Source: Propioniciclava soli (lineage in GTDB: Bacteria; Actinomycetota; Actinomycetes; Propionibacteriales; Propionibacteriaceae). From it: 64,000 bases of DNA. Below are positions 39,257 through 56,756 of this stretch, in pieces. The notes under the pieces are model-generated. The model searched no databases. It was not told where the DNA came from and was given only the letters and a program-made list of their open reading frames with translations. Position 1 is the first letter of the stretch. Every line of letters starts with the position of its first letter. The stretch spans positions 1 through 64,000 of the forward strand of contig NZ_JACYOT010000005.1 of the NCBI RefSeq assembly GCF_014858005.1, given 5' to 3'. The translations under genes and the position numbers were made by a program.

Positions 39257-40444
39257 GTGGATTCCGGGGACCCCGCCGACTGTGTGTTTTGCGCCATCGT
39301 CGCTGGGACCGTCCCGTGCGCCAAAGTGGCCGAGGACGAACTCACCTTCGCCTTCATGGACGTCGATCCGGGCACAGACGGCCACCTGCTGGTCATTCCG
39401 AAGCGGCACAGCGCCGATCTGCTCGACGTTGATGCCGATGATCTGACCGCGACCGTGCTGGCTGCCCAGCGGATCAGCAGGGCTGTGGTGTCCGAGCTGG
39501 GCGCGGACGGTGTGAACCTGCTGAACTGCAGCGGCAAGGCCGCCTGGCAGACCGTCTTCCACGTCCACCTACACGTGATCCCGAGGTACGACGATCGGAG
39601 CAGGGATCGGATGGAGCTCCCGTTCGAGCCGGGGATGCCGGCCGACGCCGCGGCCATCGCCGAGCACGCCAGGTTGCTGGCTGCTGCTCTGATCCCCGAG
39701 AAGAACGCGTCTGGCAAGGAGTTCGTCGACGCTGATCTGTCGGGAGCACGTTTTGTGCGCTCCAACCTTGCCCGTGCCGTGATGCGAGGGGTTGACGTGG
39801 CCGGCCTGGACGTGGACGCCCCGTGGCTGCTGGACGGGGAGAGCTCGCTGAGGGTCAACGGTGTGGACGTGGCCCCGTTGGTTGACGCCGAGTTGGATCG
39901 TCGGTTTCCCGGCCGGGCACTGCGCCGAGCGGAGGATCCTGACGGCCTTCGCGCGGCCTGGGCTGCTGTTGAGCGGGCGTGGGATACGACACTGGAGCGG
40001 GCCCAGGCGTTGCCCGAGAACAGCGTCGACATCCAGGTCGACGGGGAATGGTCCTTCGCCCAGACCCTGCGTCACCTCGTCATGGCGATCGACACGTGGC
40101 TCGGGCGCGCAGTGTTGCGTCAAGGGCGAGAGGCCTACCATCCGATCGGTCAGCCCAATATCGAGTTCGAGGCCGACGGCGGCGACATGTCGATCTTCAG
40201 TCGCACCGAGCCGACCTTCGCCGAGGTCCTCACCGTACGCGCCGATCGGGTCGCCATGGTCCGGGACTTCTTGGAGCAGGTGACGCCCGAGGTCCTGATG
40301 GCCGAACGGGTCAACCCGTGGGCGCCCGGACACTCCGAGACTGTCCTTGCCTGCCTGCACACCATCCTCGAGGAGGAATGGGAACACCACCGGTACGCCG
40401 TGCGTGACCTGGAGTCGATCCAGGTTCTCGCGCCGGATGCCTGA
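39257..40444 (+). CDS. HIT-DinB fusion protein with pentapeptide-like link
   Basis: 395 aa. Residues 9-115 are a HIT nucleotide hydrolase/transferase domain, with CVFCAIVAGTVPCAKV and the histidine triad HVHLHVIPR (His102, 104, 106). A short pentapeptide-like strip (FVDADLSGARFVRSNLARAV, about 157-176) leads to a DinB-type helical bundle (TLRHLVMAIDTWLGRA). GTG start. The fusion suggests processing of a nucleotide-linked metabolite. The stop codon overlaps the dif-like site, and the Tn7-like element begins 61 bp downstream of the stop. Confidence 0.85.
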   Translation: MDSGDPADCVFCAIVAGTVPCAKVAEDELTFAFMDVDPGTDGHLLVIPKRHSADLLDVDADDLTATVLAAQRISRAVVSELGADGVNLLNCSGKAAWQTVFHVHLHVIPRYDDRSRDRMELPFEPGMPADAAAIAEHARLLAAALIPEKNASGKEFVDADLSGARFVRSNLARAVMRGVDVAGLDVDAPWLLDGESSLRVNGVDVAPLVDAELDRRFPGRALRRAEDPDGLRAAWAAVERAWDTTLERAQALPENSVDIQVDGEWSFAQTLRHLVMAIDTWLGRAVLRQGREAYHPIGQPNIEFEADGGDMSIFSRTEPTFAEVLTVRADRVAMVRDFLEQVTPEVLMAERVNPWAPGHSETVLACLHTILEEEWEHHRYAVRDLESIQVLAPDA

Positions 40445-40470
40445 GTCCGATAATGCACATTATGTCAGAT
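40443..40470. other. dif: dif-like XerC/XerD recombination site
   Basis: 28 bp: 11-bp arm GAGTCCGATAA, 6-bp centre TGCACA, 11-bp arm TTATGTCAGAT. It shares the overall layout of E. coli dif (ATAA, centre, TTATGT), with 9 of 11 bases matching in the right arm. From memory, the core CCGATAAT-CA-CATTATGTCA is close to the actinobacterial dif consensus. It overlaps the HIT-DinB stop. If correct, this is the chromosome-dimer resolution site and marks the terminus. Confidence 0.75.
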
Positions 40471-40499
40471 TCCACCAGGACTGCCAGGGTGGTGTTGCA

Positions 40500-40504
40500 C
40501 AGTC
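40500..40504. repeat. 5-bp target site duplication, left copy (Tn7-like)
   Basis: CAGTC directly before TGTCCC of the left end, repeated exactly at 56100-56104. Five bp is characteristic of Tn7-like transposition. Confidence 0.9.
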
Positions 40505-40622
40505 TGTCCCCTCTTGCTCTAACCTGCACATCTCCTGGTCTACCTTGCACCTGCTATAGTAAGAACCTCACTTCTCGCCAGAACATGCATCTTCGCCTCT
40601 GGCTCCAGCGCAAGGAGGTTCG
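40505..40622 (+). repeat. Left end with TnsB-type binding sites
   Basis: The terminus TGTCCCCTCTTGC is inverted at the right end (TGTCCCGTCTCGC reading inward from 56099). Two repeats follow: AACCTGCACA (40521-40530) and TACCTTGCAC (40541-40550); the latter is exactly inverted at 56006-56015. The tnsA promoter must lie between here and 40622, with AAGGAGG just ahead of the GTG. Confidence 0.8.
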
Positions 40623-41417
40623 GTGCCGAAGGTCAAGACCGAGACGCCGCCGCCTGGCTCGTTGCCGCGCAACTCCAACCCCGAGCGCTCGATGATCCTC
40701 GCTCGGATCGCTGGGCAGCCGGTGTCCGAGGTTGTGCTGGACGACCAGGCTGTGTCCCTGATCCGCTTCGAGGACGCTGAGCCCATCAGGAAGTTCTACG
40801 CCTGGCCTCATCGGAGGGTCTACGACGGCCTCTACTGGTCCTCCACGACGCGCACCCATGTCGAGTTCGCGTCGCTGCTGGAGCGCGAGTTCCTCATGAA
40901 GAGCGACTTCGACATCGAGGTTGCCGACATCTCGGCCCAGCCCTTGGCGATCCTGTGGCCCTACCGTAAGCACGGTCCGCGTGACCATGTGCCCGACTAC
41001 TTCGTTCGTCTCACCGATGGTTCAGGCCGCGTGGTGGATGTCCGTCGCCCGGACAAGGCCCAGGACAACGAGCAGTTCGCCATGACCCGCCGCCTGTGCG
41101 CTCAGATCGGCTGGGACTACGAGGTCTTCACCGGGCTGTCGGCGCAGCGGGAGGCGAACCTGCGCTTCATGGCAGGCTTCCGGGCCGACCGCTATCAGCC
41201 CGAGGGGTCGCTCATCCGAGTGATCCAGGACTGCTACTCCCCTGCCACCTCGTTCAGGGCTGGACTGCTGCGAGCGGTGCGGTCGACCAAGTTGGCCAAG
41301 GAGCAGGTGCATGGGCATGTCCTGTGGATGATCTTCCACTCCCTCCTGGTGCTCGATCTCGATGCGGCGATCTCGATGGAGACCCAGGTGCACAACCCTC
41401 GCGAGGTGGCCCCGTGA
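40623..41417 (+). CDS. tnsA: TnsA-like transposon endonuclease
   Basis: 264 aa. The PD-(D/E)XK core is visible: Glu81 (THVEFASLLERE), Gln106-Pro107, Asp125 in HVPDYFVRL, then VVDVRRPDK where the catalytic Lys of E. coli TnsA is Arg141 or Arg142. TnsA cuts the 5' ends to allow cut-and-paste. GTG 40623 has AAGGAGG upstream. Its stop overlaps tnsB by 4 bp. Confidence 0.88.
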   Translation: MPKVKTETPPPGSLPRNSNPERSMILARIAGQPVSEVVLDDQAVSLIRFEDAEPIRKFYAWPHRRVYDGLYWSSTTRTHVEFASLLEREFLMKSDFDIEVADISAQPLAILWPYRKHGPRDHVPDYFVRLTDGSGRVVDVRRPDKAQDNEQFAMTRRLCAQIGWDYEVFTGLSAQREANLRFMAGFRADRYQPEGSLIRVIQDCYSPATSFRAGLLRAVRSTKLAKEQVHGHVLWMIFHSLLVLDLDAAISMETQVHNPREVAP

Positions 41418-43438
41418 CCTCGGTGCGGCTCTTCGACTTCATCGAGTTCGACGGCCAGGCATGGCAGGTCGTCGCTCAGGACGGCACCGAACTGGCCCTG
41501 CGGAACCTCGGGACCAACCGCATCCGTAAGGTCCCAGTGCTCGACCTCCTTCAGGACGACTCGCTCCTGCCCGACGACGGGTCCCGGGACACCCGCCTGG
41601 ACGACCTGTCCGTGTTGGACACCGTGCCAGCACCAGCCGCCGACCGCGCGCTCTTCGTGCACCGACACGTCTACGAGGTCCTGAACGGGTTCCCCCCACC
41701 ATGGACGCACCTGGACGACGAGAAGGTCGTGGTCGAGCCAAACCCCGACTACGACCCGGCCAACACCTTGGAGTCACGGATCGAGGCGAAGGTCGAGGAA
41801 CTGCGAGCGGCGGGCACTCCCCTGGCCAAGCGCACCCTGAAGGGCTACCTCGCCCGGTACCGGGACGAGGGCCTGGCGGGACTGGTGGACAAGCGGATGA
41901 CGCAACCCGTCTCCCGCACCGGGACGATGGACCCGCGCACCGTGGCCCTGCTGGAGCAGATCATCGAGCGTCAGGGCACCATCTCCACCGGCTCCAAGAG
42001 CAGGATCATCGGGCAAGTTCGTCTGGAGGCGGCGGCGCTGGGGCTACCGCTGAAGTTGGCGGACTCGACCCTCTACCGGATCATCTCTCAGGTGGGCCGA
42101 GCGTCCCTGCACACCTTCGGCAACGCCACCACACGCCGGACACAGGCCAACAAGCCGGGTCGCTCGTACGGGGCCCAGAAGCCCATCCGACCCGGTGAAC
42201 TCGTGGAGATCGACAGCACGCCGTTCGACGTGATGGTGGTGATGCCGGACGGCTCCGTCAGCCGTCCCACGCTCGTCGGGATGATCGACATAGCCACCCG
42301 CACCGTCTGCGGTGCTCGGCTGGCCCCGGGGCCGACCAAGGGCGTGGATCTTGCTGCTGCTGTCCTCGGACGCTCGCTCACTCCTCTGGAGATGGTGCCG
42401 GGCTGGAGCGAGTCGATGTCGTTGACCCGCTCGATCCTGCCCGCAGGGATGATCGAGCCCGACGAGGAGTTGCACGCTTCCCTGGCGGCACGACCGATCA
42501 TCTTCCCCACCTCGATCACGATTGACCGTGGCAAGGACTACATGTCCAAGGTCTTCATGGATGCCTGCGAGTACCTCCAGATCGACGTGGTTCGGGCCAA
42601 CCCCCGGACCCCGACCGACAAACCGCACATCGAACGCACCTTCGCGGCGATCAACTCCGGCTTCACTCAGTTCCTCAACGGCTACGTCGGGCAGCACGTC
42701 GTGCGTCGGGGCTCCTCCCCCGACCAGGAGGCTGTAATCACCCTTCAGCAGGCTCAGGACCTCTTGGACGGCTGGCTGGTGAAGGTCTGGCAGAACCGCG
42801 CCCACGACGGGCTGCGGCACCCGGCTGCGCCCGGGAAGACGCTGACCCCGAACGAGATGTATCGCGCCCTGGCAGGCGTGGCTCCGACCGTGCCACGGAC
42901 CCTGACGCGCGATGACTACATCGCACTGCTCCCGCGTCGTTGGAACCGCATCCAGCCCTACGGGGTCAAGGTGGCCAACCTGCGATACTCCGCCGAGGAA
43001 CTGCGCCCCTTCATCGGGCAGGACAGCGGCCTGAAGGGCGTCGCCAACGGTCGGTGGGAGGTCCACTACGACCCGTGGGCCATGAACAGCGTGTTCGTGC
43101 GCGACCACCACCAGGGCCGATGGATCGAGGCCGTCTGGCAGCCGGGACAGTCAGCACTGGCTCCGTTCTCCATGGAAGTGCTCCAGGCAGCGATCAAGGC
43201 GGCGCAGGGCCGCGACCCCCACGCGACCCCGATGGACTACCTGGCCGAGATCAACCGCATCCAGACCACTTCCGGTCCGATGACGCGGGCCGAGAAGAAG
43301 GCGTCGCGATCCCAGCGTCCGGCCATGGTTCCGGTTGAGCCCGCTCTCGACGTGGACGAACTGGCCGATGAGCCCGAGCCCACCCCGCCGACCCCCATCC
43401 GCAAGCCTGCTCGCAAGAGCATGCCGCTGCTCGACTAG
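41414..43438 (+). CDS. tnsB: TnsB-like DDE transposase (Mu/rve type)
   Basis: 674 aa. N-terminal helix-turn-helix DNA-binding part (KRTLKGYLARYRDEGLAGLV), then an rve catalytic core with Asp267 (EIDSTPFDVMV), Asp371 (TIDRGKDYMS) and Glu407 (DKPHIERTF), a DD(35)E spacing. A Mu-C-like barrel follows (WEVHYDPWAMNSVFVRD), and the acidic/Pro-rich tail from 620 is the probable TnsC contact. GTG 41414 overlaps the tnsA stop. Confidence 0.95.
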   Translation: MTSVRLFDFIEFDGQAWQVVAQDGTELALRNLGTNRIRKVPVLDLLQDDSLLPDDGSRDTRLDDLSVLDTVPAPAADRALFVHRHVYEVLNGFPPPWTHLDDEKVVVEPNPDYDPANTLESRIEAKVEELRAAGTPLAKRTLKGYLARYRDEGLAGLVDKRMTQPVSRTGTMDPRTVALLEQIIERQGTISTGSKSRIIGQVRLEAAALGLPLKLADSTLYRIISQVGRASLHTFGNATTRRTQANKPGRSYGAQKPIRPGELVEIDSTPFDVMVVMPDGSVSRPTLVGMIDIATRTVCGARLAPGPTKGVDLAAAVLGRSLTPLEMVPGWSESMSLTRSILPAGMIEPDEELHASLAARPIIFPTSITIDRGKDYMSKVFMDACEYLQIDVVRANPRTPTDKPHIERTFAAINSGFTQFLNGYVGQHVVRRGSSPDQEAVITLQQAQDLLDGWLVKVWQNRAHDGLRHPAAPGKTLTPNEMYRALAGVAPTVPRTLTRDDYIALLPRRWNRIQPYGVKVANLRYSAEELRPFIGQDSGLKGVANGRWEVHYDPWAMNSVFVRDHHQGRWIEAVWQPGQSALAPFSMEVLQAAIKAAQGRDPHATPMDYLAEINRIQTTSGPMTRAEKKASRSQRPAMVPVEPALDVDELADEPEPTPPTPIRKPARKSMPLLD

Positions 43439-43446
43439 GAGACACC

Positions 43447-44532
43447 ATGACGGACTTCGACACCGAGACCTGGGTTCCCGACACCATCGACAAGTGGCGG
43501 CAGTGGGTGGCCTACGCCCCGGTGAAGCCGACCATCCTGACCACGAAGGAGGCCGAGCGCCTCAGCGAGGACGACCGTGAGGACTACCGGGATGCCCGGC
43601 TCGCGTGGCTGAACTCCAGCCACGTGCTGGCCACTCCGGATGTGCTCCGGCTCCGCCGCGAGTTCGACATCACCACGGCGATGAACTCCGGGCAGTCCTT
43701 CACGGCTCGGCAGGCTCTGGCGGTCAGCGGCACCCAGACCATGGGCAAGAGCACGGCGGTACTGCACCTGGGGAAGAACTACGAGCGCAAGATGATGCGT
43801 AAGTCACCGCACGCCAAAGACCCGTCGTACGTGCCTGTCATCTACTTGGCCCTGCCGGAGACGAGCACACCGAAGGCCCTGATGCGCGCGTTCGCACGGA
43901 CCCTTGGTGCTGACTACCGGGACCGGACCTCCACCGATGTCCTGACCGACCGGATTGCCGAACTCCTCCGGGAGAAGACAAGAACCTCCCTGGTGATCCT
44001 TGACGAGGTGCAGCGCCTGACGACGAAGCAGATCGCGGGCAGCGAGGCCGCAGGGGCGCTGAAGGGCTTCATGGAGAAGGTGCCTGCATCCTTCGTCCTC
44101 GTCGGCGTCGATCTACCTCGCAGCGACCTGCTGGGAGGACCGTTCGCAGACGAGATCGCAGGGCGGGTGACGATGCACGAGATGCGTCACCACGGCATCG
44201 GCACAGCCGAGCAGCGTGAGGACTGGGACACCCTGCTGCACGCCATCGAGGAGAACATCCTCCCGCTGGCCGATCATGAACTGGGGTCCTTGGAGGCCCG
44301 AGCCGGATGGCTGCATGACCTCACGGGCGGCAACATCGGTTCGCTCATGCTGCTCCTACGTCGTGCCACGACGACGGCTCTCATCGACGGCGACGAACAA
44401 CTGACGGACGAGCACCTGGATCAGACCGTGCCCGACTACCGCGCCGCCCTCACCCACAGGAACAAGGCCAAGGAGCGAGCCCAAGCGGAGGCCAGGGCCC
44501 GCTACCGTCAGCCCGCGAAGAGTGCTGGATGA
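43447..44532 (+). CDS. tnsC: TnsC/TniB-like AAA+ regulator
   Basis: 361 aa. Walker A SGTQTMGKSTAV (residues 94-105), Walker B LVILDEVQRL (182-191), sensor and C-terminal helical region. It forms filaments that link TniQ-bound target to TnsAB. AGGAGACACC before ATG 43447. Its stop overlaps the tniQ start. Confidence 0.92.
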   Translation: MTDFDTETWVPDTIDKWRQWVAYAPVKPTILTTKEAERLSEDDREDYRDARLAWLNSSHVLATPDVLRLRREFDITTAMNSGQSFTARQALAVSGTQTMGKSTAVLHLGKNYERKMMRKSPHAKDPSYVPVIYLALPETSTPKALMRAFARTLGADYRDRTSTDVLTDRIAELLREKTRTSLVILDEVQRLTTKQIAGSEAAGALKGFMEKVPASFVLVGVDLPRSDLLGGPFADEIAGRVTMHEMRHHGIGTAEQREDWDTLLHAIEENILPLADHELGSLEARAGWLHDLTGGNIGSLMLLLRRATTTALIDGDEQLTDEHLDQTVPDYRAALTHRNKAKERAQAEARARYRQPAKSAG

Positions 44533-45401
44533 TCGCTCCGCTGCCAGTGAGGACCAGGTTGATCGGTGGCGAGGGACTGCCCACCTACCGGACGCGCCAC
44601 GCTGCCAACAACCTGACCACTGTTGCCGACGTGGAGCGCTACGTCGAGGAGCAGAGCGGACAGCGCCTGAGCAAGTCCTCTCGTCACGCGGAGGTCCTCC
44701 AGGCGTGGCGGGAACTCGGCAGCCTGCACCAGCGTGCCTTCACCGAGCCGCAGGTCGTCTCGGGCAACTGGGTCATCGACCGAGACCTGTGCGAGCGCTG
44801 CGTACCTCCCTACGAAGGTGCCCACGGGCGACTCCCCTGGGTCGGCTGGGTCTGTCTGAAGCACAAGCGCTGGATCAAGGATGACGAACAGACGGACCTG
44901 TGCCGCTTCGGAGAGGCACTCGTGGCCGAGCGGCACTGGCGCGGGCGGCTCACGCCACGACGAGTCGTCGTGGACTCCCCGCTGCTGCTCCTCGCGGAGG
45001 AGTCCGCCACGGTGGGCATCTCCAAGGCCGTCCTGGAGGAGCGCGCTGAGCGAGTTGCGTCCCCCTCCCCTGGTCTGCTCGTCTATCCCGAGACCGTGAG
45101 GATCGCCCGCCTCCTCTCGCGGCCCTCGTTCCTCGACGCGATCCTCAGCGATGCTCCCAGTCTGTGGAAACGCGCCTTGGTCGAGCGCGAGGTCAAGGCG
45201 ATCCTGCCCGACGCTGAGGACGCGGAGATGTGGCGTGCGCTCGCCCGAGTCTGGGACTTCGTTCTGAGCCTCCAGGACGTTGTGCGGGATGCCCGCTGGC
45301 TCGGGCAGGTTCCGGAGGATCGGTGGAACGTCCTGCGGTACTGGTCAGGCTTTGCGGAGTTTGAGCGCGTTGAAGTCGTCCAGACTCACCCGCTGGTGTA
45401 G
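44529..45401 (+). CDS. tniQ: TniQ-family target-selection protein
   Basis: 290 aa, shorter than Tn7 TnsD (about 500 aa) and nearer TniQ of Tn5053. N-terminal TniQ domain (RLIGGEGLPTYRTRH), zinc finger with Cys88, Cys91, Cys109, His112 (CERC ... VCLKHKRW), then a helical DNA-binding half. It probably chooses the target, for which the adjacent dif-like site is the candidate. ATG overlaps tnsC (ATGA). Its last 57 bp overlap the antisense end of the GIY-YIG-like gene. Confidence 0.9.
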   Translation: MIAPLPVRTRLIGGEGLPTYRTRHAANNLTTVADVERYVEEQSGQRLSKSSRHAEVLQAWRELGSLHQRAFTEPQVVSGNWVIDRDLCERCVPPYEGAHGRLPWVGWVCLKHKRWIKDDEQTDLCRFGEALVAERHWRGRLTPRRVVVDSPLLLLAEESATVGISKAVLEERAERVASPSPGLLVYPETVRIARLLSRPSFLDAILSDAPSLWKRALVEREVKAILPDAEDAEMWRALARVWDFVLSLQDVVRDARWLGQVPEDRWNVLRYWSGFAEFERVEVVQTHPLV

Positions 45402-46136
45402 GTACCGCCGCCGCAGGGCACCCACCATCTCGGGGTCATCGTGGAGGAGCACCCGCCACCGGGTCTGACCTTCGTTGATCGGCTCGATGGCCTCAGCCAC
45501 CCAGACGCCGAAGACAAAGCCTCCCGGGATCACGCCGCGCCCTGTCCGGCCCTCGGCAACCAATAAGAGCGGCAGTGGCCCACCTTCCCTCAAAGCCTTG
45601 GCCACCGTCTTGGGGGCGGTGCTCCCCTCGATCACGGCGAGGCTCTCCCCGAAGAGCGACTGCTCGTCCAGGACTGGCAACTGGCCAATGGGAGTTGGTC
45701 CGGTGTGCGTCCTCAGGATGGCCCCGTCCTCGGGCAGGGGGACGAACTGTGCCCGCTCAACGGTCTGCACCAACGTGCCTGGCCAACGGACGCTCTTCAT
45801 CCGCTCGTTCAGGGGTGCAGGGTGCAAGCAGGCGCAGAGAGTGCCAACGGTGCGTGCGAGGTGGCCCGATTCGGCGCTCGGCCAGGCTTGCTCCGGCACT
45901 ACCTCCACGATCACCCGGATTCCCGCCTGGCTCAACTTCCCCAGTCGCTCACGCGCTGCTCCCTCGCCCTCGGGAAGCGACTCGGGCTCAGTGGCTTCGC
46001 GCAGGTCCACGGGCTGCGGAAGTTCGTGCCGCAGCCCCACGTAGAAGATCGTCCCCAGGGCGTGGTTGCTCGGCCCGGTGGTCGGGTCGATCAGTAGGTA
46101 GATTCGCCACGGGACGGCTTCTCGGGTGACGGGCAT
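45345..46136 (-). CDS. GIY-YIG-like domain protein, cargo
   Basis: 263 aa from ATG 46136. The N-terminus has RIYLLIDPTTG and IFYVGLRHE, the two strands of a GIY-YIG fold (here LLI/YVG), as in LEM-3-type GIY-YIG proteins. The rest (AGIRVIVEVVPEQAWPSAES, VFGVWVAEAIEPINEGQTRW) is a uncharacterised alpha/beta domain. Convergent with tniQ, overlapping it by 57 bp. Nuclease activity is possible but the catalytic Arg/Glu set is incomplete. Defence or transposon control are both guesses. Confidence 0.6.
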   Translation of the reverse strand: MPVTREAVPWRIYLLIDPTTGPSNHALGTIFYVGLRHELPQPVDLREATEPESLPEGEGAARERLGKLSQAGIRVIVEVVPEQAWPSAESGHLARTVGTLCACLHPAPLNERMKSVRWPGTLVQTVERAQFVPLPEDGAILRTHTGPTPIGQLPVLDEQSLFGESLAVIEGSTAPKTVAKALREGGPLPLLLVAEGRTGRGVIPGGFVFGVWVAEAIEPINEGQTRWRVLLHDDPEMVGALRRRYLHQRVSLDDFNALKLRKA

Positions 46137-46409
46137 GAGTTGGGTGGCCGGCCTTCCGGTTCTTGTCGGTCTCTCTGTCCCGCAGTCTAGGGGCTGGCCA
46201 CACCTCCCCTGGCTGGTCATGGACGTCCGCGACACGCCCAAGCGTCGAAAGAATCCCGAGACGCACTCTCCGTGCTCGTCACTGAGGTTCTTCGGCGTAC
46301 CAACGGCTGAATAGCAGGGTCTCCACCCCGAGAGAAATGCCGCGAAGGGCGAATAGGACTGGCTATGAGCGAAGGAAACTACTTCTCACACGACTTAGGA
46401 GGTGGACGA

Positions 46410-47865: not shown

Positions 47866-49470
47866 ATGGCCCCACGTGGGACGAAGACAGCCTCGCTCGG
47901 ACTGGAGGACGCCCTCTGGAAGGCAGCCAACCAACTCCGCTCCAACATGGAGTCCTCGGAGTACAAGCACGTCGTGCTGGGGCTGCTGTTCCTGAAGTAC
48001 GTCTCCGACAGGTTCGAGTTGCACCGCTCTCGGCTGGAGGCGCTGACCAAGGACGAATCCAGCGACTACTTCATGCCGACCGACGAGGCGCGTGAGGCAC
48101 TCCTGGAGGACCGCGACGAGTACACCGCCGAGGGCGTGTTTTGGGTCCCGGAGGGGCACCGCTGGAGCGACCTCCAGAAGGTCGCCAAGCAGCCCGTCAT
48201 CGGTGCGCGCATCGACGCCGCCATGGAGGCAATCGAGAAGGAGAACCCCACGCTGAAGGGCGTGCTCCCGAAGAACTTCAACCGTCGCGAACTTTCACCG
48301 ACCACGCTCGGCGGCTTGATCGACACGTTCTCCCGGGACGATCTCGCCGCAGCCGAGCACGAAGGCATGGATGTGCTCGGGCGGGTCTACGAATACTTCC
48401 TGGCCCAGTTCGCCTCAGACGAGGGCAAGAACGGCGGAGAGTTCTACACGCCCCGGTCGGTGGTCTCGCTGCTGGTGGAGATGCTGCGCCCCTACAACGG
48501 GCGGGTCTTCGACCCCTGCTGCGGCTCTGGTGGCATGTTCGTCCAAGCCGAACACTTCGTCAGCCATCACGGAGGATCGAAGAACGACATCTCCGTGTTC
48601 GGCCAGGAGATGAACCCGACCACGTGGCGGCTGGCCCAGATGAACCTCGCCATCCGTGGCATCGAAGCCAACCTGGGGCCCGAGTGGGGTGACTCGTTCC
48701 ATGATGACAAGCACCCCGACCTGCGGGCTGACTTCATCATGGCCAACCCACCGTTCAACATCTCTGAGTGGGGTGGGGAGCGGCTGACCGACGACAAGCG
48801 GTGGGTCTACGGCACACCGCCTCGCGGGAACGCCAACTACGCCTGGCTCCAGCACATGCTCCACCATCTCTCGCCCACGGGGACGATGGGTGTGGTGCTC
48901 GCCAACGGTTCGCTGGTGGTCGACCAGTCCGGTCAGGGTGAGATTCGCAAGCGCATGGTCGAGGACGACGTGGTGGAGTGCATCGTCGCGCTGCCTTCGC
49001 AGTTGTTCTACTCCGTACAGATTCCTGTGACCCTGTGGTTCCTGACCAAGGACAAGACGGCCCGGAAGGTGAAGTCCGAGCGCACACAACGTGACCGTCG
49101 AGGCGAGGTGCTCTTCATCGACGCCCGCGAGATGGGCCACATGGAGTCGCGCACTCACCGCAATCTGTCGCCCGAGGACGCGGCGAAGATCGCGGACACC
49201 TACAACGCCTGGCGAGGTGACCCGGACCTTCAGCCCTACGAGGACGTGCCCGGCTTCTGCGTATCAGCGACGACTCAGCAGGTGTCGGAGGCGGGATATG
49301 CGCTGAGCCCGGGGCGGTACGTGGGAACTGAAGCAATCGAGGACGACGGCATCCCAGTCGCGGAGAAGATTGCCCTCCTCACGGAAGAAGTTCGCTCGGG
49401 ATTCGCCACGCGGGCAGACCTCCAGACTGCTGTGGTTGCGGCGCTTACTTCGCTGGAGGAAGTGGAGTGA
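47866..49470 (+). CDS. hsdM: Type I restriction-modification DNA methyltransferase subunit
   Basis: 534 aa. N-terminal HsdM helical domain (LEDALWKAANQLRSNM), SAM motif I DPCCGSGGMF (216-225), catalytic NPPF at 294-297 (N6-adenine type). Methylates the HsdS-defined site to protect host DNA. Starts at ATG 47866, the first gene of hsdMSR with its own promoter in the 120 bp before. Stop overlaps hsdS by 4 bp. Confidence 0.96.
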   Translation: MAPRGTKTASLGLEDALWKAANQLRSNMESSEYKHVVLGLLFLKYVSDRFELHRSRLEALTKDESSDYFMPTDEAREALLEDRDEYTAEGVFWVPEGHRWSDLQKVAKQPVIGARIDAAMEAIEKENPTLKGVLPKNFNRRELSPTTLGGLIDTFSRDDLAAAEHEGMDVLGRVYEYFLAQFASDEGKNGGEFYTPRSVVSLLVEMLRPYNGRVFDPCCGSGGMFVQAEHFVSHHGGSKNDISVFGQEMNPTTWRLAQMNLAIRGIEANLGPEWGDSFHDDKHPDLRADFIMANPPFNISEWGGERLTDDKRWVYGTPPRGNANYAWLQHMLHHLSPTGTMGVVLANGSLVVDQSGQGEIRKRMVEDDVVECIVALPSQLFYSVQIPVTLWFLTKDKTARKVKSERTQRDRRGEVLFIDAREMGHMESRTHRNLSPEDAAKIADTYNAWRGDPDLQPYEDVPGFCVSATTQQVSEAGYALSPGRYVGTEAIEDDGIPVAEKIALLTEEVRSGFATRADLQTAVVAALTSLEEVE

Positions 49471-50654
49471 GCGCATGGCAGCAGGGACAACTGGGCGACC
49501 TATGCCGCTTCGTCGGAGGCCAGGGTTTCTCTCCAGAGTTTCAGGGCAGCCAAGCGGGAGACGTGCCGTTCATCAAGGTGAGCGACATGGAGTTGCCGGG
49601 GAACGAAAGGCGCATCACGGCTGCGAACAACTGGGTGACATACGAGGTCGTCTCCACGGCTAGGTTCAAGACTCAGCCAGTCGATTCAATCGTATTTGCA
49701 AAGATCGGGGAGGCAATCAAGCGAGAGCGAGTGCGCTTGCTCACCCGCCCAACGATCATCGACAACAACATGATGGCAGCGATCCCTAACCTGAACACCT
49801 GCACTCCGGGCTTCCTCTACTATCTGTTCCAGTTCACTCCGTTCTCAAAGGACCACGGAGGCACGTCGTTGCCGTACCTTCGGGCCGGAGACATGGTGAA
49901 CATCGGAGTTTCATACCCGCCACTCGATGAGCAGCAGCGCATCGCGGGTGTGCTCGGGGCCTTCGATGACCTCATCGAGACGAACCGAAATACGCAGCGC
50001 TCGATGGAGGCGCTGGCCCACGCCCTATTCGCTCGTGAGGGTTTCGACGCACTTCCTTCGGGCGACATGGTGAGCCTGGGTGAGGTGATCGAGGTCAATC
50101 CGAGGGTGAGCAAGCCGAAGGGCCAAGCGCCCTATGTGGACATGGCCGCGCTGCCCGCTGATTCGGCGCTGCTCGGTCCTGCATCCGCCCGAGAGGCCGC
50201 GGGTGGAGCCAAGTTCCACAACGGGGACACCCTGCTGGCTCGCATCACCCCATGCTTGGAGAATGGGAAGACAGCCTTCGTCACGAATCTTCCCGACCAG
50301 TCAACAGGTGTGGGTTCCACCGAGTTCATCGTCCTTCGGGGCTCTCGCGATACAGGTTCCTTCTGGCCTTACTGCCTCGCACGGAGTCCACGGTTTCGGG
50401 CCTTCGCCATCCAACAGTTGGGTGACGGAACCTCCGGGCGTCAAAGGGTGTCAGCAGGCGCAGTCTCTGAGTACGTGATCCCCGTTCCGGGGCAGAAGCC
50501 CCTGCGGCGCTTCAGGGAAGCAGTCGAACCACTCGTTGAAGGCATGATCGCGCTGCACGAGGAAGCGCTTGATCTCACCCGCCAGCGCGACAAACTGCTC
50601 CCGCTCCTCATGTCGGGCAAGGTGCGGGTGTCTGATCTGGAGGGAGTCGCCTGA
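49467..50654 (+). CDS. hsdS: Type I restriction-modification specificity subunit
   Basis: 395 aa. Two target-recognition domains (about 1-155 and 205-340) separated and followed by conserved helices: the first, LDEQQRIAGVLGAFDDLIET, and the second, EEALDLTRQRDKLLPLLMSG. Sets DNA sequence specificity for HsdM and HsdR. GTG start overlaps hsdM; recognition site cannot be read from sequence. AT-richer than hsdM, as usual for swapped recognition domains. Confidence 0.95.
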   Translation: MSAWQQGQLGDLCRFVGGQGFSPEFQGSQAGDVPFIKVSDMELPGNERRITAANNWVTYEVVSTARFKTQPVDSIVFAKIGEAIKRERVRLLTRPTIIDNNMMAAIPNLNTCTPGFLYYLFQFTPFSKDHGGTSLPYLRAGDMVNIGVSYPPLDEQQRIAGVLGAFDDLIETNRNTQRSMEALAHALFAREGFDALPSGDMVSLGEVIEVNPRVSKPKGQAPYVDMAALPADSALLGPASAREAAGGAKFHNGDTLLARITPCLENGKTAFVTNLPDQSTGVGSTEFIVLRGSRDTGSFWPYCLARSPRFRAFAIQQLGDGTSGRQRVSAGAVSEYVIPVPGQKPLRRFREAVEPLVEGMIALHEEALDLTRQRDKLLPLLMSGKVRVSDLEGVA

Positions 50655-53600
50655 TGCAGTTTGCCGAGTCAGACTTGGAGGACTGGGTTCTGGAGATGCT
50701 GGCCGAGCAAGGCTGGCAGACCGCCCATGGCCCGGACATCGCACCCGACACGCTCTTGGCCGAACGTGCGGACTACCGAGAGGTGGTGCTCTCCGACCGG
50801 CTCCGCAACGCGATCAGCGACCTAAACCCCGACCTGCCCACCGATGCTGTCGAGGATGCCGTGCGGACGGCGTTGCGTCCTGAGTCTGCGGTCATACAGA
50901 GCGAGAACTGGCGCGCCTACCAGTTGCTCGTCATGGGCGTCCCCGTGGATTACCGGGACTCAGACGGCACGCCACGGACCGCTCGGGCACGCCTGGTCAA
51001 CTGGGAGACCCCGACCGCCAATGACCTGCTGGCGGTAAACCAGTTCACGATCCGGGGTCCGAAGAGGGAGCGTCGTCCTGACGTGGTGCTTTTCGTGAAC
51101 GGGCTGCCGCTGGGTCTGTTCGAGTTGAAGAAGCCTGGCGACGAGAACGCCACGGTGGCCGGGGCCTACAAGCAGGTGCAGACGTACAAGGCCCAGATTC
51201 CCGACCTGTTCACGTGGAACCAAGGCATCGTCGTCTCGGACGGGCATCTGGCCCGGATGGGCACGCTCACGGCTCCCCCGAACCACTTCCAAGCATGGAA
51301 GACGATCCACGGCTCCGATCTCGCTGGCAAGTACCAGCCTGAGATCGAGGTCGTGATCGCCGGGTACCTGCGCCCCGAAGTCTTCCTGGACTGGGTGCGC
51401 TACTTCATCGCCTTCAAGGGCGACGGCGAGAAGGCCATCAAGATCGGCGCGAAGTACCACCAATACTGGGCCGTGACCAAGGCGGTTAACGAGACCGTGG
51501 AGGCCATGGAGAACGACGGGCGTGCCGGGATCGTCTGGCACACCCAGGGTTCGGGAAAGTCGTTCGAGATGGCGTGGTACGCGGGCAAGTTGATGCAGCA
51601 CCCCGCGATGGAGAACCCGACGCTGGTAGTGCTCACTGACCGCAACGACCTCGACAACCAACTCTTCGAGGAGACCTTCGCGGCCACCAAGCCCCGCGCC
51701 CCTCTTCCGGAGGCTCCGGTGCAGGCCGACTCGCGCAAGCACCTGAAGGACCTGCTGGTCGGTCGCCAGACGGGCGGGATCATCTTCTCCACGATCCAGA
51801 AGTTCGGCCTGACCAAGGACGAGCGCGATGCTGGGAAGCGGTTCCCGCTGCTCTCGGATCGGCTGAACATCGTCGTCATCGTGGACGAGGCCCACCGCTC
51901 GAACTACGACTTCATCGACGGCTTCGCACGCAACCTGCGCGACGGCCTGCCCAATGCCACCTACATCGGCTTTACCGGCACCCCCATCGAGGCCAAGGAC
52001 CGCTCCACCACCGCAGTGTTCGGGGATGTCATCGACACCTACGACCTCACTCAGGCTGTTGAGGATGGGGCCACGGTCAAGGTCCTCTACGAGGCGCGAC
52101 TGGCCAAGGTACGGCTCCCCGAGAACGCCCTGGACGAGATTGACGACGCCTTCGCCGTGGCCGTGTCCGGCAGTGAGGAGGAGGCTCAGGAGCGCCTGAA
52201 GTCCAAGTGGTCCCGGGTGGAGGCCATCGTCGGTGCCGACGACCGGCTCGATGAGTTGGCGCGAGACATCGTGGCCCACTGGGAGGCCCGCAAGCAGGTT
52301 ATGCCCGAGGCCAAGTGCATGGTCGTGGCCATGTCCAGGCGCATCGCTGTGGCCCTGCACGACAAGTTCCGCGTGCTGCGTCCGGACTGGTACTCCGCAG
52401 AGGACGAGCAGGGCCGGATGAAGGTCGTCATGTCTGGCTCTGCCAGTGACGATGAGCACTGGCAGGAGCACCTGCGCTCCAAGGAGGCGACACGGAGGCT
52501 GAAGGTCCGCGCCTCCGACCCGGAGGACCCGCTGGACATGCTGATCGTTCGCGACATGTGGCTGACCGGCTTCGACTCCCCGTCCATGACCACGATGTAC
52601 GTCGACAAGCCCATGGCTGGCGTCTCGCTCATGCAGGCCATCACCCGGGTGAACCGGACGTTCAAGGACAAGCCCGCTGGGCTCATCGTGGACTACATCG
52701 GCATCGCTGAGGACTTGAAGACCGCTCTGGGCGACTACACGAAGCGCGATCAGGACAACGAGAACGTCGGAGCCGACATCGAGAAGACGGCCATCCCCGA
52801 GATGGTCAAGGAGCACGAGATCGTCTGCTCGATCCTGCACGGCTTCTCGTGGCGTCCGCTTCTGGAGGACACGTCCGCGAAGGCATACATCAACGCCGTC
52901 GCAGCGGGCGTCGAGTGGCTACTGGAGCAGGAGCACCACCAAGACCCCACCGAGGGACTGGGCGAGCCCCAGGAGGGCACGCAGAAGCCCCTGACGACCA
53001 AGCAGCGGTTCATGGCCCACACCAAGAGGCTGCGGTCCTTCTTCGTGATGGCTCCAGCCTCTCCCCAGGCCACCTCGATCCGCGATGACGTGGCCTACTT
53101 CGACGCCGTGCGTGCCGCCATCAGCAAGATCGAGAACGCTGGCCGAGGCGCGGGCGACGCTGACGCAGAACTCGACACCGCCATCCGCCAGATCGTGAGC
53201 GAGAGCATGACGGGCATGGGCGTGGTGGACATCTACGCCGAAGCCGGGATCGCCAACCCCGACATCTCCCTCATTGACGAGGGCTTCGTAGAGCAGATCA
53301 CCAAGTCCAAGCGGCCCAACCTCCAGATGGAGGCCCTTAAGCGCCTGCTCGCGAGCGAGATCAAGGCCATCGCCAAGCGCAACGTCGTCAAGGGACGCGA
53401 GTTCTCCGAGATGCTCGGTGACTCACTGCTGCGCTACCAGAACCGCAGCCTCGACACCGCGACCGTGGTGGCCGAACTCGTGCGGCTCGCAAAGGCGCTG
53501 AAGGCCGAGCACGACCGAGGTGCCCAGACGGGTCTCAGTGAGGACGAACTGGCCTTCTACGACGCCCTTCGCACCAACGGCTCCGCGCTGGAGGTCATGA

Positions 53601-53818
53601 AGGACGACACCATGAAGGTCATCGCCCACGAACTCACCGAGATCGTCCGCCGCGATGCCAAGACGGACTGGGCTGTGAAGGAGCAGGTCAGGGCCAAGTT
53701 GCGCACCACCATCAAGCGACTGCTTCTGAGGCACGGCTATCCGCCCGACAAGGCTCCCGACGCCACGGAACTGATCCTGAAGCAGGCCGAGGTCCTGGGT
53801 GAGAGGCAGGAGGGCTGA
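50654..53818 (+). CDS. hsdR: Type I restriction enzyme, HsdR helicase-nuclease subunit
   Basis: 1054 aa. N-terminal nuclease with Asp143 (RPDVVLF), Glu157-x-Lys159 (LFELKKPGDE), then SF2 helicase motifs: Walker A HTQGSGKS (296-303), DEAH (411-414), FTGTPIEAKD and the C-terminal RVNRTF. Long helical C-terminus. It translocates DNA and cuts unmethylated targets. ATG shares bases with the hsdS stop (TGATG). All catalytic motifs are intact. Confidence 0.96.
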   Translation: MQFAESDLEDWVLEMLAEQGWQTAHGPDIAPDTLLAERADYREVVLSDRLRNAISDLNPDLPTDAVEDAVRTALRPESAVIQSENWRAYQLLVMGVPVDYRDSDGTPRTARARLVNWETPTANDLLAVNQFTIRGPKRERRPDVVLFVNGLPLGLFELKKPGDENATVAGAYKQVQTYKAQIPDLFTWNQGIVVSDGHLARMGTLTAPPNHFQAWKTIHGSDLAGKYQPEIEVVIAGYLRPEVFLDWVRYFIAFKGDGEKAIKIGAKYHQYWAVTKAVNETVEAMENDGRAGIVWHTQGSGKSFEMAWYAGKLMQHPAMENPTLVVLTDRNDLDNQLFEETFAATKPRAPLPEAPVQADSRKHLKDLLVGRQTGGIIFSTIQKFGLTKDERDAGKRFPLLSDRLNIVVIVDEAHRSNYDFIDGFARNLRDGLPNATYIGFTGTPIEAKDRSTTAVFGDVIDTYDLTQAVEDGATVKVLYEARLAKVRLPENALDEIDDAFAVAVSGSEEEAQERLKSKWSRVEAIVGADDRLDELARDIVAHWEARKQVMPEAKCMVVAMSRRIAVALHDKFRVLRPDWYSAEDEQGRMKVVMSGSASDDEHWQEHLRSKEATRRLKVRASDPEDPLDMLIVRDMWLTGFDSPSMTTMYVDKPMAGVSLMQAITRVNRTFKDKPAGLIVDYIGIAEDLKTALGDYTKRDQDNENVGADIEKTAIPEMVKEHEIVCSILHGFSWRPLLEDTSAKAYINAVAAGVEWLLEQEHHQDPTEGLGEPQEGTQKPLTTKQRFMAHTKRLRSFFVMAPASPQATSIRDDVAYFDAVRAAISKIENAGRGAGDADAELDTAIRQIVSESMTGMGVVDIYAEAGIANPDISLIDEGFVEQITKSKRPNLQMEALKRLLASEIKAIAKRNVVKGREFSEMLGDSLLRYQNRSLDTATVVAELVRLAKALKAEHDRGAQTGLSEDELAFYDALRTNGSALEVMKDDTMKVIAHELTEIVRRDAKTDWAVKEQVRAKLRTTIKRLLLRHGYPPDKAPDATELILKQAEVLGERQEG

Positions 53819-53819
53819 C

Positions 53820-55436
53820 ATGCGCCTGAAGGAACTCCGATTCGTAGGCTTTCGACGGTTCACAGACCTGACTATCACGGACCTGCCAGACACGGCTCGT
53901 TTGATCGTTCTCGCTGGCCCAAACGGCACCGGCAAGTCGTCCATCTTCGACGGATTGAGAACCTGGCAGTTCACTCTCGGATTCAACTACGGGTGGGATG
54001 AGACCTACGGGCACAAGAAGGGATCGCCGAAGGTCGATTGGACACAACATGTGCGGGTGGCCTTTCACGGCGACCAGCACCCCAAGCATGGTGATGTTGC
54101 TGGACTCATCTACCTTCGCTCAGCATTCCGTCACGATCCAGACTTCTCGCTTGCAAATGTGTCGGTCATGCCCGATCCAACTCAGAATCAACGCACGATG
54201 AAGACCATCGACCATGACGCAAGCGTTTCCGAGAACTACCAGCGCCTCATCATGCAGTCCTTGGAGATGGTGTTTGAGGAGAATCCTGAAACGGAGCAGA
54301 TGCCTCGCAAGGAACTCAGGGACGCCATTTTGGGAGAGGTCCGCAGGTCAATGTCAAACGTGTTCGATGACCTTACGGTCGAGGAGGTGAGCGGTATCGG
54401 TAAACCTAGCAGTCCGGCCACTTTCCTGTTCAGCAAGGGACAGTCGAAGCGTTTCCTGTACAAGAACCTTTCCGCAGGAGAGAAGGCGCTGTTTGACCTG
54501 ATTCTGGACATCGTGATAAAGCGTTCCCACTTCAGCGATTCGGTCTGGTGCATTGACGAACCTGAGGCCCACATCGGAACTCGCGCACAGGCTCGCCTCC
54601 TGCGTGAGATGTACCGGCTACTTCCTGTCGGTTCGCAACTGATCCTCGCATCACACAGCATCGGACTAATGAAGGAGGCGGTTCGTATCGGGGCCGAGCG
54701 GCCAGGTGCAGTCGTCTTCCTCGACATGGATGGACACGACTTCGATGCGGTGACCGTGATCCGACCCACAGTTCCGGATCGAGCATTCTGGCAACGCTCG
54801 CTGGATGTAGCCCTTGATGACCTTGCCGCACTCGTCTCGCCGCGTGAAGTCGTGATGTGTGAGGGCAGACCAGGAGCAAGCAAGGGGAAGAATGCAGATT
54901 TCGACGCCAAGTGCTACCGCACGATATTTCATCCGCAGTTCCCCGACACAGACTTTCTTTCTGTCGGAAACAGCGATGATGCCAGCAACGACACACTGGG
55001 CTTAGGTGTAGCGCTCCAAACGCTGACTCCTGGAACAGAGATCATTCGCCTCATCGACCGCGATCTTCGAACTGACGAAGAGATTGACCTTGCAGGGAAG
55101 CAAGGAGTCCAGGTCTTGTCCAGACGTCACATTGAGTCGTTCCTATATGACGATGAGGTCCTGACGGCGCTGTGCCATCAATATGGAAGATCAGACTTAG
55201 TGAGTGAGATCGTCTCGTTAAAGCAAGATGCCATAAAGGCGGCAACGGCCCGAGGCAAGGATGCTGACGACATTAAGGCTGCCGCGGGTGATATTTACAA
55301 CGGAGTCAGGACCAAACTCAACATCCGTCAACCAGGAAGCAACCAATACGCATTCGCTACCGCGATGCTGGCCCCGCTTATTCGGCCCGGGATGTCCGTC
55401 TATGACGAACTAAGGAAGTGCATCTTCGCTTCGTAA
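53820..55436 (+). CDS. AAA-ATPase with TOPRIM-like C-terminus (OLD/PARIS-like)
   Basis: 538 aa. SMC-like ABC ATPase: Walker A LAGPNGTGKSSIFDG (33-40 core), signature NLSAGEKALFD (216-226), Walker B VWCIDEPEAH (242-251), H-loop SQLILASHS. The C-terminal third has a TOPRIM/DUF4435-like nuclease: Glu348 (VVMCEGRP), LIDRD (411-415), RRHIESFLYDDEVL. This matches OLD or fused AriA-AriB (PARIS) organisation. CAGGAGGGCTGAC precedes ATG 53820. Lower GC than hsdR, so probably a separate acquisition into the RM module, giving a second defence layer. Confidence 0.75.
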   Translation: MRLKELRFVGFRRFTDLTITDLPDTARLIVLAGPNGTGKSSIFDGLRTWQFTLGFNYGWDETYGHKKGSPKVDWTQHVRVAFHGDQHPKHGDVAGLIYLRSAFRHDPDFSLANVSVMPDPTQNQRTMKTIDHDASVSENYQRLIMQSLEMVFEENPETEQMPRKELRDAILGEVRRSMSNVFDDLTVEEVSGIGKPSSPATFLFSKGQSKRFLYKNLSAGEKALFDLILDIVIKRSHFSDSVWCIDEPEAHIGTRAQARLLREMYRLLPVGSQLILASHSIGLMKEAVRIGAERPGAVVFLDMDGHDFDAVTVIRPTVPDRAFWQRSLDVALDDLAALVSPREVVMCEGRPGASKGKNADFDAKCYRTIFHPQFPDTDFLSVGNSDDASNDTLGLGVALQTLTPGTEIIRLIDRDLRTDEEIDLAGKQGVQVLSRRHIESFLYDDEVLTALCHQYGRSDLVSEIVSLKQDAIKAATARGKDADDIKAAAGDIYNGVRTKLNIRQPGSNQYAFATAMLAPLIRPGMSVYDELRKCIFAS

Positions 55437-55862: not shown

Positions 55863-56099
55863 GCGCCTGGACTGTAGCCAGGACCAATGACATCCGATAG
55901 CGGTTGCGGATCGTCTGCTCTTGCGGCAAACAACCGTTCTTGCTGGCGCACCAGCCGCAGCCCGCCTCTTCTCGCCCTACTCTGCACAAGTCGATGTCGG
56001 ATGTTGTGCAAGGTAGCAAGAGACGAACGGACCGTGATGCCTCTCGTTCTATCCTGCATATCTCCTAGTTGTCAGTGCATGGTGCCGCGAGACGGGACA
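55863..56099. repeat. Right end with TnsB-type binding sites
   Basis: No gene. GTGCAAGGTA at 56006-56015 is the exact inverse of 40541-40550; further TGCA-centred relatives are CTGCACAAG (near 55982), CCTGCATATC (near 56054) and GTGCATGG (near 56075). The end TGTCCCGTCTCGC reads inward from 56099. Confidence 0.75.
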
Positions 56100-56104
56100 C
56101 AGTC
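56100..56104. repeat. 5-bp target site duplication, right copy (Tn7-like)
   Basis: CAGTC, identical to 40500-40504, immediately after GGGACA. Confidence 0.9.
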
Positions 56105-56198
56105 TGTCAGTCCCCACCGGCGCCCCTCCCCCCGCACGGCCACTGGCAGAGCTAGAAGCCCGCCTCCGACCGGCTCGGACCACGGTGGACGCGGTACA

Positions 56199-56456
56199 TC
56201 ATCGATAGACGTCTGCGCGGTGCTCGATGGCCGCGATCGCCACGCGGGTGTCAATTCGATAGATGACGCGGTAGTCACCGCGGCGTGCGCTGTGCAGACC
56301 CTCCAGGTTGATGCGCAGCGCTTTGCCGGCCCGTTGAGGATTGCTGGCCAGAGGTCCGTAGATGAACTCGATGACCGCTGCAGCGACCTTCTCGGGCAGC
56401 CGATGCAGGGCACGCCTGGCCGCGGGGGTCCACGAAATCTCATACGTGTCAGCCAT
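56199..56456 (-). CDS. relE: RelE/ParE-family toxin
   Basis: 85 aa. EISWTPAARRALHRLPEKVA, then INLEGLHSARRGDYRVIYRI and HRADVYR are RelE/ParE toxin features (Arg and His near the C-terminus). Overlaps the antitoxin stop by 4 bp. Toxin acts on ribosome-bound mRNA or gyrase; which is not clear. Confidence 0.9.
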   Translation of the reverse strand: MADTYEISWTPAARRALHRLPEKVAAAVIEFIYGPLASNPQRAGKALRINLEGLHSARRGDYRVIYRIDTRVAIAAIEHRADVYR

Positions 56457-56737
56457 CAGCGGCCAAGCGTCGCGAGAAGCTCTTCCTTGCTCATGACCTC
56501 GGCCCGGCCTGCGAGCAGCTCGGCAAGACTCTCCCGAACCTGGCCCACCAGCTCAGGACGGCTCATGACCTCGAGCGTCTCCTCCAGCGAAGCCAGATCA
56601 TCGGTGCTGATCACCACTGCAGCTGGTTTGCCGTGGCGGGTGATCACCACCCGGTCATGCTGGTGCTCAACTTGGTCGACCACCTCGGACAGGTGGTTCT
56701 TCACATCCCTGAGTGCCATGGTTGCATCCGCGCTCAT
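56456..56737 (-). CDS. Phd/YefM-family antitoxin
   Basis: 93 aa. MALRDVKNHLSEVVDQVEHQ with TRHGKPAAVVISTDDLASLE is the Phd fold; the C-terminal helix (ELLAGRAEVMSKEELL) wraps the toxin. ATG 56737 is called; an in-frame ATG at 56719 is possible. Overlapping palindromes lie right at its start, giving classic conditional self-repression. Just outside the Tn7-like element. Confidence 0.9.
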   Translation of the reverse strand: MSADATMALRDVKNHLSEVVDQVEHQHDRVVITRHGKPAAVVISTDDLASLEETLEVMSRPELVGQVRESLAELLAGRAEVMSKEELLATLGR

Positions 56738-56738
56738 G

Positions 56739-56756
56739 GCTACAAGTGTAGCTACA
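56739..56756. promoter_or_regulatory. Antitoxin operator palindromes
   Basis: GCTACA-AG-TGTAGC at 56739-56752 and overlapping TGTAGCTACA at 56747-56756, ending 1 bp before the antitoxin ATG. Typical arrangement for YefM/Phd autorepression. Confidence 0.7.

Follow-up and report, generated by a model that had tools for sequence, protein, structure and literature searches.

Tn7-like transposons insert at attachment sites that are mostly genes or the ends of genes or tRNAs. The dif site is found in most circular bacterial chromosomes, once in each. It is a non-coding site with a role in segregation, and a host recombinase complex binds it at a defined time. Here we describe an element of 15,595 bp with TGTCCC ends, which begins 34 bp to the right of dif in a 64,000-nucleotide stretch of the Propioniciclava soli genome (contig NZ_JACYOT010000005.1, positions 1 to 64,000; the window below is this whole stretch). 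Judged by sequence comparison, it very probably belongs to an actinobacterial family of Tn7-like cut-and-paste transposons with dif as attachment site. Besides Tn7, the closest described systems are the Tn5053/Tn402 elements, which lack TnsA, and the IS1202 family of insertion sequences (IS); Minakhina 1999 is said to deal with the Tn5053-type 'res site hunters', and Siguier et al. 2023 reportedly with IS1202.

Tn7-like attachment sites described so far include tRNA genes (tRNA homing) and comM (PMC10293859) as well as glmS (PMC2918618). The element in the window shares with Tn7 at attTn7 (glmS) the TnsB-type DDE transposase, the TnsC AAA+ regulator, TnsA and a TniQ/TnsD selector, the gene order tnsA-tnsB-tnsC, the TGT...ACA ends with a 5-bp duplication, and insertion a few tens of bp beside a conserved site that stays untouched. 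The geometry is similar too: the TnsD footprint at attTn7 covers +23 to +58 (PMC2918618), and dif in the window, counted from the midpoint of the duplication, spans +32 to +59. Unlike in Tn7, the target is dif and not a gene end, the TniQ has 290 aa, and either side of the target is used. TnsE was not recognised in the element, with no search aimed at it. The IS1202-family 'dif site hunters' (ISAjo2 group, Acinetobacter; Harmer et al., PMC10132070) have a TnsB-like transposase, TGT/ACA ends and a 5-bp duplication, and insert beside dif or pdif, 5 bp from the XerC site and in one orientation. These are stand-alone IS of 1.5 kb with one transposase gene and no TnsA, TnsC, TniQ or other Tns proteins, whereas the window element is 15.6 kb long with tnsA, tnsC and tniQ, and its family inserts 33–44 bp from the 28-bp dif, on either side, with large cargo and in Actinomycetota. 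The Tn5053/Tn402 'res site hunters' also combine a DDE transposase, an AAA regulator and a TniQ to seek a site-specific recombination site, but theirs is the res of plasmid or transposon resolvases (PMC7765201), and their tniABQ-res-tniR arrangement with insertion in res contrasts with the tnsA gene and the chromosomal dif target seen here; the scan for protein families, which took in part of the open reading frames (ORFs) of the element, recognised no resolvase. In host range, gene order and defence cargo the element resembles the Actinobacteria-dominated clade 2 of Tn7-like transposons (PMC8649781), to which it likely belongs.

The main texts of Faure et al. (PMC10293859) and Benler et al. 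(PMC8649781), as far as available, do not contain dif, XerC or XerD as whole words, and the available parts of PMC12907356, PMC11187229, PMC4210621, PMC5993296, PMC8754128 and PMC7350765 describe no Tn7-like element that targets dif. We found none in print, in a search that missed most subscription papers and all bioRxiv preprints. The preliminary description of this DNA had stated that it knew of no described element of this kind, which agrees with our search but is qualified by the IS1202-family dif site hunters (PMC10132070).

The chromosomal dif is the 28-bp string GAGTCCGATAATGCACATTATGTCAGAT, present as an exact match at 40443-40470 and followed by a gap of 34 bp (40471-40504) before the transposon end at 40505; the preliminary description had both the site and the gap right. 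The 28-bp site is single in its own 3.80-Mb, 65-contig assembly when up to three mismatches are allowed, and a control with the reversed pattern gave no matches. Its 21 central bases are identical to those of the Frankia alni dif, CACGCCGATAATGCACATTATGTCAAGT, as quoted by Kono et al. (PMC3025954). A scan of 21 genomes of the host family, including that of the window, found one match with at most three mismatches in 19 genomes, two in G078 and none in G110. The C-terminal domain of dnaA was detected in 8/9 genomes searched, and in the six closed or nearly closed genomes of the family with dnaA and dif on one contig, the distance between them was approximately 50.0% (G068), 51.9% (G177), 48.9% (G004), 48.5% (G093), 52.6% (G005) and 56% (G003) of the chromosome, three of these figures being based on rounded genome sizes. 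We took this position from relatives because the window assembly is too fragmented for a measurement of its own. Since the core is identical to that of F. alni, the site is single in the assembly and the site lies opposite dnaA in six relatives, the sequence at 40443-40470 is, on comparative grounds, dif. The position opposite dnaA in relatives is better proof of this than GC skew, which had been suggested as a check: cumulative GC skew in the window does reach its maximum near 39–40 kb, but 20-kb samples along the G177 chromosome were too noisy to be of use. We also considered that the dif-like string might be a mere terminal TnsB-binding repeat, as TGCACATTATGTC resembles TGCACAGTCTGTC (40496-40508), but rejected this because the same sequence occurs alone opposite dnaA in element-free genomes, and because the terminal inverted repeat (TIR) and target-site duplication (TSD) place the transposon end at 40505.

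At that position the element starts with TGTCCCCTCTTGC, which pairs with the far end, ...GACGGGACA, closing at 56099, and both are bordered by the duplication CAGTC. The TnsB profile (7 rows, including the window protein) matched solved TnsB structures from Tn6677, a CRISPR-associated transposon (CAST) and Tn7, and the TnsC profile (8 rows) matched the solved structures of VchTnsC and ShTnsC. The 290-aa protein encoded behind tnsC has no Pfam match of its own. A profile of 21 relatives compared with the PDB gave five matches at E ≤ 1, all five of which are TniQ chains, each weak (best E 0.039); two distant relatives of the protein pass the Pfam TniQ cut-off, and a zinc-finger-like C-x2-C...C-x2-H motif (C88, C91, C109 and H112) is invariant in the 21 rows. 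These three lines of sequence evidence indicate that the protein is a TniQ. Foldseek with an AF2 model of moderate confidence (pLDDT 76.9) gave no significant match, with a chain of a TnsB-TnsC-TniQ complex third at E 2.8. The 14 aligned close members of this TniQ group are 220–312 aa long.

We searched for relatives of this TniQ; the counts that follow are lower bounds, as the searches scored part of the candidates and the wide genome scan used two peptide patterns, so that members may well be missed. Six of 197 genomes of the host family were positive, including that of the window. In G177, dif lies 4.0 kb upstream of tniQ with distance and polarity as in the window, and the element has its own ends and the duplication CGCTA; G120 has a window-like arrangement with 4.2 kb between dif and tniQ. 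In G082 a tniQ remnant adjoins dif, in G056 tnsA, tnsB and a partial tnsC lie beside dif on one contig while tniQ starts another, and in G078 tnsA adjoins a dif near the start of a contig, on the opposite side of that dif, and a 3.2-kb contig carries a tniQ fragment. At order level, a search of 391 genomes gave five positives, all already in the family set. When 84,980 species genomes were scanned with a four-row TniQ alignment, six loci were confirmed, the sixth being G056 again; in the other five, which have enough sequence, dif is 4.0–5.5 kb upstream of tniQ (Kocuria carniphila, Mycolicibacterium sp. CH28, Arthrobacter sp. MA-N2, a Mycobacterium metagenome-assembled genome (MAG) and Dermacoccus abyssi), with dif inverted relative to the element in Arthrobacter. 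The phylum search (396 genomes) returned the window, Dermacoccus and one weak match, and two further searches, one centred on Mycolicibacterium (251 genomes) and one on Arthrobacter (245 genomes), added G1151, G1305 and G1077, all at dif, as well as G1112. There the dif contig continues for 40 bases past dif and then covers roughly the first 125 bases of the transposon end, and the contig with tnsABC-tniQ opens with the same end. A scan of viral contigs with the TniQ alignment gave 47 pattern matches and no relatives. Four plasmid records were found by tblastn, among them the conjugative plasmid pJ349-116 with a minimal element of 4,826 bp and the duplication ACTGC, 40 bp from a dif-like site in which both dif arms are intact and the spacer is changed.

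Taken over all searches, 13 genomes (window included) have a TniQ relative covering at least two thirds of the profile, and 11 of these carry tniQ, tnsABC and dif on a single contig, where dif lies 4.0–5.5 kb upstream of tniQ and tnsA is the gene nearest to dif. In the other two (G056 and G1112) a contig break separates tniQ from dif, and the tnsA end lies beside dif. None of the 13 was located away from dif. The same tnsABC-tniQ set is thus found beside dif elsewhere, as the preliminary description had proposed to check, and for the close TniQ family in genomes there were neither relatives far from dif nor a true dif at another location. Not included in the 13 are the fragments in G078, G082, G1240, G1042 and the Arthrobacter contig G416 C3, the plasmid copies (pJ349-116, pHiyo8-1, a Nocardia plasmid and a Rhodococcus plasmid match covering 38% of the query), G1044 (no tns genes found in its region) and G879 (a 98-kb contig on which a truncated tnsC adjoins a dif-like site). 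G724 and G418 represent one Dermacoccus, and G834 and G468 appear from identical coordinates to be one genome; each was counted once. The hosts represent at least four families, including Propionibacteriaceae and, by taxonomy line, Micrococcaceae, with other host genera presumably belonging to Mycobacteriaceae and Dermacoccaceae.

The distance between dif and the transposon is nearly constant. Measured between the 21-base core of dif and the TGT end, it is 37 bp in the window and in G1151, 38 bp in G177, Kocuria, G1077 and G120, 39 bp in G056, 40 bp in G1112, 41 bp in G1305, 42 bp in Mycolicibacterium, 47 bp in the Mycobacterium MAG, and 36, 39 or 42 bp in Dermacoccus; with dif inverted it is 37 bp in G078, and 40 bp in both Arthrobacter and pJ349-116. 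The ends thus lie 36–47 bp from the core, on either side of dif and in varied gene contexts. Five element ends are backed by TIR and a 5-bp TSD, and ends without TSD were placed by eye. The five elements are those of the window (CAGTC, 15,595 bp), G177 (CGCTA, 21,889 bp), Mycolicibacterium sp. CH28 (GCCTT, 26,105 bp), G1305 (ATCAG, 13,792 bp) and pJ349-116 (ACTGC, 4,826 bp), for which decoy left ends scored as high in 0/61, 0/45, 0/75, 1/80 and 0/79 cases, respectively. To compare surroundings, the flanks facing away from the element, each at most 2.5 kb long and beginning at dif, were searched against each other by blastn for 16 loci (120 pairs; G056 and G1112 left out). A match reaching into the last 420 bases was found in 13 pairs. 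In 12 of these it is 21–27 bases long and ends in dif, and in the remaining pair, G1004-G890, it measures 54 bases at dif. When the position limit was lifted, one extra pair appeared, Arthrobacter-G1004, with a shared coding stretch 0.7–1.7 kb from dif. The sequence shared next to the insertion sites is therefore dif alone, and the neighbouring gene is not the target.

Within a family of dif-targeting Tn7-like transposons, the short TniQ would mark dif, TnsC would assemble from the marked site, and TnsAB would carry out insertion at an almost constant distance, turning the tnsA end toward dif, creating a 5-bp duplication and leaving dif intact. We infer that TniQ is the dif-sensing component, because known Tn7-like elements use TniQ/TnsD for target selection and because the habit is shared by the close TniQ group; transposition would, by analogy, follow the Tn7 pathway. 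A TniQ that seeks dif, as put forward in the preliminary description, is supported by the recurrence of the element at dif in relatives and by the insertions on either side of dif next to different genes, the role of TniQ itself being predicted. Other explanations of the arrangement were weighed. The target could be the 3′ end of the upstream gene or another neighbouring sequence, with dif a bystander; the stop codon of the upstream HIT-DinB gene overlaps the window dif by two bases, reminiscent of glmS and attTn7, and the Arthrobacter-G1004 pair does share a gene stretch 0.7–1.7 kb from dif, but this is one of 120 pairs, the HIT-DinB gene is found in none of the 15 other flanks, and insertions on either side of dif at similar spacing make this reading very improbable. 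Some phages and integrative elements integrate at dif via XerC/XerD, and G068, which is element-free, has other mobile genes beside dif, so that the element might be an integrative mobile element exploiting Xer (IMEX)-like insertion made by host XerC/XerD with the tns genes as passengers. Such integration is expected to leave dif-like sites flanking both element ends and a junction inside dif, whereas the window has one intact dif, 34 bp outside an element whose junctions are TGT...ACA with 5-bp duplications, which leaves Xer integration a highly implausible origin. Terminus regions can be rich in mobile DNA, and untargeted insertions might simply accumulate there where foreign DNA is tolerated; spacing at the level of single bases, the tnsA-first polarity toward dif, and the distant Tn7-like elements of dif-positive genomes (G468, G492 twice and G503), which are not near dif, reduce the likelihood of this to almost nil.

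A different matter is what TniQ would recognise. It may be that TnsABC-TniQ responds to the nucleoprotein complex of XerC/XerD (perhaps with FtsK) on dif and not to dif DNA, as the Tn5053-type 'res site hunters' do with resolvase-occupied res (PMC7765201). In length the TniQs roughly match the common ~300-aa core (PMC10293859), which leaves little room for a TnsD-like C-terminal DNA-binding extension; both dif orientations are used at nearly equal spacing, and the plasmid target keeps both dif arms with a different spacer. Direct binding of TniQ to dif would fit both orientations equally well, because dif is quasi-palindromic. The short TniQs, the use of both sides of dif and the precedent of the res site hunters make XerC/XerD-bound dif a serious option as the target of TniQ, and we rate somewhat below even the chance that a small TniQ recognises this complex, the element homing on a complex present once per chromosome with dif-carrying plasmids as vehicles. 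If so, insertion might be coupled to segregation of the terminus and to cell division.

Several observations weigh against a dif-targeting family of this extent. Two of the three plasmid relatives compared are not beside a dif-like site: a relative with interrupted tns genes (pHiyo8-1) is off target, its nearest dif-like site being ~4 kb away, and the Nocardia plasmid relative, for which tnsABC was not found, has no adjoining dif-like site. The support for the ends is uneven: the TIR and TSD margins over decoys are small for the window (score 17.5 versus a decoy maximum of 17.2 among left ends from the same region) and for G1305, which one decoy equalled; none of Kocuria, G120, G1151, Arthrobacter, G1226, G890, G1004 and the elements cut by contig ends yielded a right end with a clean TSD; and a 12/12 TIR pair in Arthrobacter, at 5,582 bp, has no duplication. 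Weaker TniQ relatives (E 1e-8 to 1e-3) are divided, as those with tnsABC beside dif in G1226 (64 bp), G890 (61 bp) and G1004 (perhaps 52 bp) stand next to at least five others that are not at dif (G988, G834, both copies in G1009 and the second copy in G415), with G879, G1044, G1042 and G1240 being fragments or unclear. In a tree of 21 TniQs, from which the pHiyo8-1 and Nocardia plasmid copies were left out, the 14 close rows form one group (support 99/98) whose members all sit at dif or at a dif-like site, and the rest are mixed; the label 'at dif' takes three changes on this tree, and since 109 of 500 shuffles needed as few, it does not show a single origin of the habit.

Beyond the TniQ clade, a search for more distant TnsB relatives in 296 genomes sampled from the phylum gave 13 matches in nine genomes, one match being the window; the four loci in three dif-positive genomes named above are not near dif, and the dif pattern was not found in the five contrast genomes carrying the other eight distant TnsB loci. 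Among these more distant systems, the first copy in G1009 (L160) and the second in G415 (L162) are near-identical sister Tn7-like elements located ~45–60 bp (by eye) from a CGTCACAGTGACG palindrome; a similar palindrome lies near dif in G1004 (L168), and a third sister copy (L161) is without one. A sister TniQ may thus target another palindromic site. In G988 (L159, 4360-13898), two divergent tnsABC sets ~600 bp apart suggest two elements flanking one target, and in G879 (L169, 6715-6735) the dif-like site abuts the truncated tnsC, the best dif match being on another contig.

As a target, dif would offer the family one safe landing place per genome. A dif-homing TniQ clade makes it possible to test how a short TniQ finds its site when it has no obvious DNA-binding extension, whether a nucleoprotein complex can steer transposition, and what a multi-gene cargo beside dif does to dimer resolution. 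Genetic tools for actinomycetes are limited, and a single-copy integration tool for these organisms is a possible use.

The features of the element and its target are given in Table 1. The gene convergent with tniQ had no match in Pfam or PADLOC; by tblastn it is 92% identical in the Kocuria element and 58–60% in G177, with a weak match in G120.

Table 1. Features of the Tn7-like element and the adjoining dif site (positions in the window).
Feature	Position	Strand	Remarks
dif	40443..40470	+	XerC arm GAGTCCGATAA, spacer TGCACA, XerD arm TTATGTCAGAT
Spacer between dif and target-site duplication	40471..40499		sequence
Target-site duplication CAGTC, copy 1	40500..40504
tnsA-proximal end, TGTCCCCTCTTGC...	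40505..40560		TIR with end at 56099; TIR and TSD score above all 61 decoys
tnsA, TnsA-like endonuclease	40623..41417	+	Pfam PF08722, E 5.3e-7
tnsB, DDE transposase	41414..43438	+	Pfam Mu-transpos_C, E 4.6e-8; GTG start overlapping tnsA stop, by eye
tnsC, AAA+ regulator	43447..44532	+	Pfam TniB, E 4.9e-14
tniQ, 290 aa, proposed dif selector	44529..45401	+	profile and gene position
Conserved gene, convergent with tniQ	45345..46241	-	start codon uncertain; no assigned function
Cargo hsdM, type I restriction-modification methylase	47866..49470	+
Cargo hsdS, type I restriction-modification specificity subunit	49467..50654	+
Cargo hsdR, type I restriction-modification endonuclease	50654..53818	+
Cargo AAA ATPase, resembles PtuA/AriA-type defence ATPases	53799..55436	+
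Far end ...GAGACGGGACA	56000..56099		TnsB-site-like repeats, read by eye
Target-site duplication CAGTC, copy 2	56100..56104

Just past the far end of the element, an antitoxin and RelE-like toxin pair was recognised by eye on the minus strand (56180-56740). Around dif in other genomes, 9 of 45 distinct dif contexts, some with the transposon and some without it, have a palindrome close to TTCATCWGATGAA (at most 3 mismatches) that lies 16–18 bases past the core and in each case on the XerD side: L069 (G068), L068 (G004), L138 (G1077), L144 (Mycolicibacterium), L057, L133, L139, L140 and L141. It may be a host accessory site or the trace of another element that uses dif. In G068 (L069, 15125-17614), which has no Tn7-like element, the XerD side of dif holds a TrwC-type relaxase gene and a transposase, which suggests that another mobile element may lie there. 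A second tnsA fragment in G1151 (L155, 17963-18313), 69% identical to that of G177, lies on the other side of dif and points away from it, perhaps from a second visit to the same dif. The 353-kb contig G416 C3 of Arthrobacter sp. MA-N2, possibly a plasmid, carries a decayed tniQ fragment as well as another two dif-like sites, with 1 and 2 mismatches. Finally, a TGTCCCCTTCTCG sequence resembling the window transposon end is located ~39 bases from the dif core in G128 (L041), with no tnsA nearby, and is perhaps the remnant of an element.

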